DNA of 28,679 nucleotides from a virus, in IMG/VR virus record IMGVR_UViG_3300025769_000607, positions 1-28,679 of that record. One strand, 5' to 3'. The notes beneath the pieces are model-generated. The model was not told where the DNA came from. It did not search any database and saw only the letters and a list, made by a program, of their open reading frames with translations. The translations under genes were made by a program, and so were the position numbers. Positions 17,801-17,992 of this stretch are shown one piece after another; the stretch's first letter is position 1; every line of letters starts with the position of its first letter.

Positions 17801-17823
17801 TTTATTTAGATTTAAAGGTTTAG

Positions 17824-17916
17824 CAGTAGGGGTACGATTCGAACGTACAAGAGGGTATTTCTACAATCCTCGCCCACCAGACAAGTGGGTGTGTCTGCCA
17901 GTTCCACCACCCTACT
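17824..17916 (-). tRNA. Class II tRNA with Leu-like D arm but GUC anticodon
   Basis: The minus strand folds as a complete class II tRNA: acceptor AGTAGGG / CCCTACT (7 perfect bp), TG at 8-9, D stem GTG/CAC with a Leu-like loop (GAACTGGCAGA), anticodon stem CCCAC / GTGGG, a variable arm with a GAGG / CCTC stem, and T arm GTACG-TTCGAAT-CGTAC. The discriminator base is G and CCA is not encoded. The anticodon loop is TTGTCTG, so U33 is present and positions 34-36 are GUC (17882-17880). That anticodon decodes Asp codons, which does not suit a Leu- or Ser-type body. Position 37 is T instead of the usual purine. The tRNA call is firm; identity and function are not. Confidence 0.8.
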
Positions 17917-17992
17917 TGGTATTATAATACATTCCCAATATATATACTATCGGGAGTAGTATTGCGACTGCATAAATGTAAGTTTCTGCCAT
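17912..17992 (-). CDS. 26-residue single-span membrane peptide ending inside the tRNA gene
   Basis: ATG 17992 opens 26 codons (MAETYIYAVAILLPIVYILG...), mostly a single hydrophobic span, with TAG at 17914-17912, which lies in the tRNA acceptor stem. Tiny membrane ORFs of this type are common in phages but also arise by chance in AT-rich DNA. No Shine-Dalgarno-like element stands out, as usual in Bacteroidota. If real, its mRNA would be processed within the stop codon. Confidence 0.3.
   Translation of the reverse strand: MAETYIYAVAILLPIVYILGMYYNTK

Follow-up and report, generated by a model that had tools for sequence, protein, structure and literature searches.

A family of tRNA-shaped RNAs with aspartate identity nucleotides in Bacteroidota chromosomes and phages, frequently encoded beside an AsnC-type regulator: a candidate carrier for asparagine synthesis

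A phage-borne tRNA-like RNA whose class II cloverleaf carries the GUC anticodon of aspartate raises the question of what such a molecule is for, and whether it is a remnant of another tRNA, a means of misdecoding, or an RNA with a function of its own. The locus lies in a virus record (IMG/VR IMGVR_UViG_3300025769_000607) that was analyzed over its full length of 28.7 kb (28,679 nucleotides; hereafter the window) and that carries terminase, portal, replication, and lysis genes; the sole tRNA call made by ARAGORN in it is at 17916..17823 on the minus strand, with the anticodon GUC. The initial annotation had described a class II cloverleaf with a GUC anticodon, U37, and G73, all of which are confirmed by the letters and by ARAGORN, the latter also supplying the strand that had been left unstated. 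The acceptor, anticodon, and T stems comprise 7, 5, and 5 bp, respectively, and the D arm (GGAACUGGCAGAC) is of the Leu type (Table 1). The cloverleaf is the minimum-energy fold of the RNA, with a folding energy that is in itself unremarkable (z -1.2 to -1.4). Relative to the family described below, the window copy has non-consensus nucleotides at two of the elements on which our argument turns, namely the first acceptor pair (A1-U72) and position 38 (G38), and it is devoid of the promoter motif present in hosts. The mini-ORF that ends within the acceptor stem encodes a membrane-type peptide, and relatives conserve its protein sequence despite numerous silent changes.

Table 1. Coordinates of the tRNA-like RNA, its parts, and the adjoining mini-ORF in the window.
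Feature	Position	Strand	Remarks
tRNA-like RNA, nt 1 to G73, 93 nt	17824..17916	-	ARAGORN; covariance model R1 (built from 19 sequences, the window element among them) 101.6 bits, E 2.6e-26
Acceptor stem, 5' strand AGUAGGG	17910..17916	-	First pair A1-U72, where the family consensus is U1-A72
Acceptor stem, 3' strand CCCUACU	17825..17831	-	G2-C71 invariant across the family
Discriminator G73	17824..17824	-	102/102 family members; C74 at 17823, as in examined host tRNA genes
Leu-type D arm, 3-bp stem, loop GAACUGGCAGA, A at 20a	17891..17907	-	
Anticodon arm CCCAC/GUGGG	17873..17889	-	Compensatory changes among relatives
Anticodon loop UUGUCUG	17878..17884	-	U33; G34 U35 C36 = 17882-17880; U37 = 17879; G38 = 17878
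Variable region, 24 nt, 4-bp stem GAGG/CCUC	17849..17872	-	
T arm GUACG-UUCGAAU-CGUAC	17832..17848	-	
26-aa mini-ORF MAETYIYAVAILLPIVYILGMYYNTK	17912..17992	-	UAG stop within the acceptor stem, nt 3-5

Starting from a neighboring phage protein, we identified six related viral contigs. In each of them, the RNA occupies the same position, with flanks 82-99% identical over 300 nt, and among these close relatives the anticodon, T, and variable stems show compensating changes. Loop conservation in related phages, which the initial annotation had singled out as informative, is evident here, the U33-G34-U35-C36-U37 core being the same in 6/6. A wider search with a pattern of the D arm and the loop matched about 45 viral contigs, with carriers ranging from small phages like that of the window to a 117-kb phage with 22 tRNAs (L002-L007, the matches of an early viral pattern with the wrong spacing, were set aside as chance matches). 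In genome contigs, the same pattern falls mostly on Bacteroidota chromosomes (Pedobacter, Chitinophaga, Marivirga, Litoribacter, and others), and, of 395 genomes of that phylum sampled with a covariance model, 40 contain the RNA, in one to five copies that are often in tandem. The tRNA-like RNA of the window belongs to what is mainly a chromosomal gene family. Members score at least 96 bits with the covariance model, as against at most 66 bits for ordinary tRNA-Leu, with a single outlier at 76 bits. Pedobacter sp. SYSU D00535 (L062:3983-5600) has five tandem copies, and the DNA read there contains no AsnC gene.

The pairing pattern of the family is well maintained: among 19 diverse members, 98.9% of the paired cells are standard, with 86 two-sided changes versus 21.8 in shuffles, and among 85 distinct members these values are 98.8% and 297 versus 61.6. 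Hence, it is conservation, rather than fold energy, that exceeds chance for this RNA, and we regard the family itself as solid. The sober alternative offered by the initial annotation, a decaying tRNA-Leu relic, has the Leu-like body in its favor; it is refuted by the GUC loop in all six close relatives, by conservation of the loop over about 100 members, and by the combination of compensatory change with conservation across many viruses and hosts, so that we give it virtually no credence. The variable region spans 19-123 nt in the family and usually includes an inner structured domain; in the long forms, there is an inner helix and the flanks are conserved. A group I intron or GOLLD/ROOL RNA was considered as the source of the long variable arms and dropped, there being no Rfam match. 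Outside the Bacteroidota, a second phylum yielded the RNA in 1 of 141 genomes; this member (L063:2616-2709, genome G005), seemingly from outside Bacteroidota, has a simple variable hairpin and, given the single occurrence in that phylum, was possibly acquired horizontally.

The available tools largely pass over these RNAs. ARAGORN called none of them at the 16 host loci tested, and no Rfam 15 family matches the window element or the host elements over its curated threshold; among the viral members, one (L023) clears the threshold of the general Rfam tRNA model, with 40.8 bits. BLAST searches of the phage collection with the window element returned no match, and those with a generic 5' half retrieved four records, three annotated as tRNA-Leu and one unannotated. 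We found no published description of the RNA in the open-access papers searched and, with novelty judged against Rfam and those papers only, the tRNA-shaped RNAs of Bacteroidota and their phages apparently make up a large family that has hitherto gone undescribed.

In 41 of 58 host loci, a regulator gene starts 120-214 bp upstream of the RNA and is divergently oriented every time; the remaining 17 have no AsnC neighbor within the DNA read. The regulator scores 157-178 bits with the NCBIfam model for AsnC, short of the equivalog cut-off (227), as compared with about 50-71 bits for other Lrp-type models, and the closest solved structure is that of E. coli AsnC (2cg4). In E. coli, asnC and asnA form a divergent gene pair, and the loci described here share with it an AsnC-type regulator that diverges from the neighboring gene; they differ in that the partner is an RNA gene and in that asnA is absent from 27 of 30 RNA-positive genomes. 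The Bacteroidota promoter motif TAnnTTTG lies within 60 nt upstream of 37 of 56 first RNA copies versus 2.9% of random windows and, by eye, several host RNAs are followed by hairpin and T-run ends, indicating that these RNAs are independent genes in hosts. Both Rfam and ARAGORN have missed this widespread structured RNA family, which adjoins a conserved amino-acid regulator. At five host loci (L073, L076, L124, L157, and L162), a gene that by eye resembles trmB, coding for a tRNA methyltransferase, follows the RNA in the same orientation at a distance of 92-331 bp.

Position-wise comparison of 102 distinct members points to the amino acid with which the RNA may be concerned. U35, C36, G73, and G2-C71 are invariant, and C38 and G34 are each kept in 99 members, G34 being replaced in three. 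Aspartate identity is specified by G73, G34, U35, C36, and C38, with a minor contribution from G2-C71 (PMC9976931), a correspondence that the initial annotation, though right about the anatomy, overlooked; the window copy deviates from this set by its G38. Part of the constancy of the loop is ascertainment, since the first pattern search required the loop UGUCU; U35 and C36 were constant even though the covariance model let through changes at positions 33, 34, and 37. The hallmarks of a decoding tRNA, U33 and a purine at position 37, are not maintained across the family: 10 of 102 members have A, C, or G at position 33, while at position 37 there is U in 96 members, C in four, G in two, and A in none (U33 and U37 in the window). 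The variants come from several host genomes. This variation supports the earlier suspicion that the RNA is something other than an ordinary decoding tRNA.

These features bear directly on the possibility of an additional tRNA-Asp with an unusual body, charged with aspartate and decoding GAC/GAU. The family shares G34, U35, C36, C38, G73, and G2-C71 with tRNA-Asp, GUC is kept in 99 of the 102 members, and the tRNA detector names Asp. Nevertheless, it differs from tRNA-Asp in its class II body, in having U1-A72 and A20a where tRNA-Asp has G1-C72 and U20a, in U37, and in an unfixed U33; moreover, the losses at positions 33, 34, and 37 described above are at odds with decoding, and a normal tRNA-Asp is already present in all six hosts tested and in the 117-kb phage. 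We consider this explanation improbable.

The constancy of the UGUCU loop could alternatively be due to base pairing, either as a switch with AGACA in the D arm or with a target RNA, in which case aminoacylation would be irrelevant. In the window, the D-arm AGACA (17897-17891) is complementary to the anticodon-loop UGUCU (17884-17878), and this complementarity also extends across the family. RNAalifold run on 17 long-arm members favors the pairing of the D arm with the anticodon loop, and all five pairs are possible in 62 of the 102 members; however, the pairing is broken in the other 40, the loop changes are unmatched by changes in the D arm, the anticodon stem itself covaries, and the window RNA folds as a cloverleaf. 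The switch is weakened by the 40 members that break the pairing, and base pairing as the reason for the loop appears very unlikely.

A further option is suggested by the body of the RNA, through which it might be charged with serine (or leucine) and then misdecode Asp codons or donate serine elsewhere. A long variable arm together with G73 is recognized by SerRS, and it is on this basis that allo-tRNAs, GUC being among their anticodons, have been discussed (PMC7609411); the family has both of these SerRS-type features. Its resemblance to the tRNA-Leu of Bacteroidota includes the D-loop GGAAYUGGyAGAC, the spacing of the variable arm, and the 7+5 helices, from which it is set apart by G73 rather than A73, U1-A72, C20, an Asp-type loop with U37, and a variable region of up to 123 nt. 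The delivery of leucine to Asp codons, as proposed in the initial annotation, is unlikely in that the sampled tRNA-Leu genes, which come from four host genomes, all have A73 versus G73 in 102/102 members, none of which has a Leu anticodon, and in that neither LeuRS nor SerRS needs the conserved U35, C36, and C38; the strictness of these positions is equally unexplained by seryl identity. Likewise, the family has in common with allo-tRNAs and other non-canonical class II tRNAs (PMC7609411) the long variable arm, G73, and an anticodon that mismatches the body, but it differs in its acceptor/T branch of 7/5 helices supported by covariation (8/4 or 9/3 in allo-tRNAs), in a near-fixed loop in place of diverse anticodons, and in being a chromosomal gene adjoining AsnC. 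A further point against charging through the class II body is the outlier mentioned above, a 76-nt member-like RNA (L143:1501-1576, genome G080; 76 bits, between the family and tRNA-Leu), which has a short variable loop, yet has the same ends and D arm as the family and a similar anticodon loop (CUAUCUC). Taken at its most general, serine or leucine charging has in our view a small probability.

The end of the acceptor stem and position 20a may point to an amidotransferase. The 1-72 pair is U-A in 97 of the 102 members and A-U in five, the window and its close kin having the latter, and 20a is A; the combination of G1-C72 and U20a that is seen in host tRNA-Asp genes is absent. In the known system, amidation of Asp-tRNA-Asn by GatCAB is specified by U1-A72, with G1-C72 and U20a blocking tRNA-Asp (PMC9976931), and 97 of 102 members have this U1-A72 feature of GatCAB substrates together with neither G1-C72 nor U20a. 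Thus, with the Asp nucleotides, U1-A72, and A20a and without the antideterminants of tRNA-Asp, the family unites aspartate identity with the amidotransferase element. We accordingly look upon a dedicated, non-decoding carrier, charged with aspartate that is then amidated to asparagine, as the leading explanation, one that is plausible while falling short of probable. Under it, the RNA, which is tRNA-derived and probably non-decoding, would be produced and processed like a tRNA; AspRS would charge it with aspartate via U35, C36, C38, G73, and G2-C71, as expected from the identity rules; and GatCAB would convert the aspartyl form to the asparaginyl form via U1-A72, making the RNA a dedicated carrier for the tRNA-dependent supply of asparagine, which would be released or used thereafter. 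The altered U33 and purine 37 would prevent the Asn-charged RNA from inserting asparagine at Asp codons and, in hosts, the adjoining AsnC-type asparagine regulator may control the system. Against this explanation, the G1-C72 of bacterial tRNA-Asp helps to seat the 3' end in AspRS (PMC9976931), and the long variable arm might hinder this enzyme. The more encompassing proposal, in which the Bacteroidota RNA serves outside translation as the carrier on which AspRS and GatCAB, controlled by AsnC, turn aspartate into asparagine, and phages have the RNA too, is a tentative one.

The U1-A72 pair and the AsnC neighbor together led to a prediction, written before testing, that RNA-positive genomes should retain GatCAB. 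We found gatB in 30/30 RNA-positive genomes versus 24/30 RNA-negative ones. The former have AsnRS in 30/30 and GlnRS in 26/30, and where both of these enzymes are present, GatCAB would be dispensable for translation; among genomes with AsnRS and GlnRS, gatB occurs in 26/26 of those with the RNA versus 7/13 of those without it (p=5e-4, uncorrected for kinship and with genome completeness unstated). At E values up to 1e-20, close AsnC homologs are found in 5 of 30 RNA-negative genomes. In just one of these (G010), the homolog shares 72% identity with the AsnC of Pedobacter; there is no RNA beside it (L192), and the genome has asnA and no gatB, a natural contrast that points the same way as the gatB association. 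The asparagine synthetases bear out the idea less well. Loss of asnA was also tried as a marker of the RNA and gave no signal (asnA in 3/30 RNA-positive versus 1/30 RNA-negative genomes). An AsnB-type synthetase scores over the cut-off in 26 of 30 RNA-positive genomes and, consequently, the RNA cannot be the sole source of asparagine in most of them.

A precedent for such a route exists in Deinococcus radiodurans, Thermus, and Bdellovibrio, where AspRS and GatCAB make asparagine on tRNA-Asn despite the presence of AsnRS and GlnRS (PMC4206432). RNA-positive genomes have the same set of enzymes (AsnRS, GlnRS, and GatCAB), and the family shares U1-A72 with the tRNA of that route. In the tRNA-Asn route, the carrier is the decoding tRNA-Asn itself and a non-discriminating AspRS is required (PMC4206432), whereas the carrier proposed here would be a separate RNA of Asp identity, probably non-decoding, and encoded beside AsnC. 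If the carrier idea is correct, tRNA-dependent amino-acid synthesis would be separated from decoding, and the retention of GatCAB by many Bacteroidota despite AsnRS and GlnRS, which the earlier survey left open (PMC4206432), would have an explanation.

The main competitor of the carrier is an RNA that lacks a metabolic carrier role and works as a decoy, sensor, or regulator by binding AspRS, GatCAB, or a nuclease directed at tRNAs; in hosts, it could report Asp/Asn charging to the AsnC circuit and, in phages, act as a sink for a defense nuclease or titrate AspRS. Binding would fit the Asp identity nucleotides, the AsnC adjacency, and the lost decoding positions equally well, and many phages, some of them with large tRNA arrays, have captured the RNA. 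On the other hand, neither the intact acceptor end (G73 and C74) nor the replacement of both amidotransferase antideterminants would be needed for it, and chromosomal copies adjoining a regulator are atypical of anti-defense genes; we therefore judge it rather unlikely, though worth keeping in sight. An uncharged state, also raised by the initial annotation, is conceivable as well. Returning to the asparagine carrier, phages might, more speculatively, use the RNA to add to or redirect the supply of asparagine in infected cells and, if the carrier idea is correct, could influence host amino-acid supply via a single RNA. The neighbors of the RNA in phages were considered as clues to function and set aside, as the recurring ones seem to track phage relatedness. 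In the 117-kb phage (L054:2-5040), whose 22 tRNAs include a normal tRNA-Asp, the copy with the long variable arm lies between tRNA-Ser and tRNA-Leu genes.
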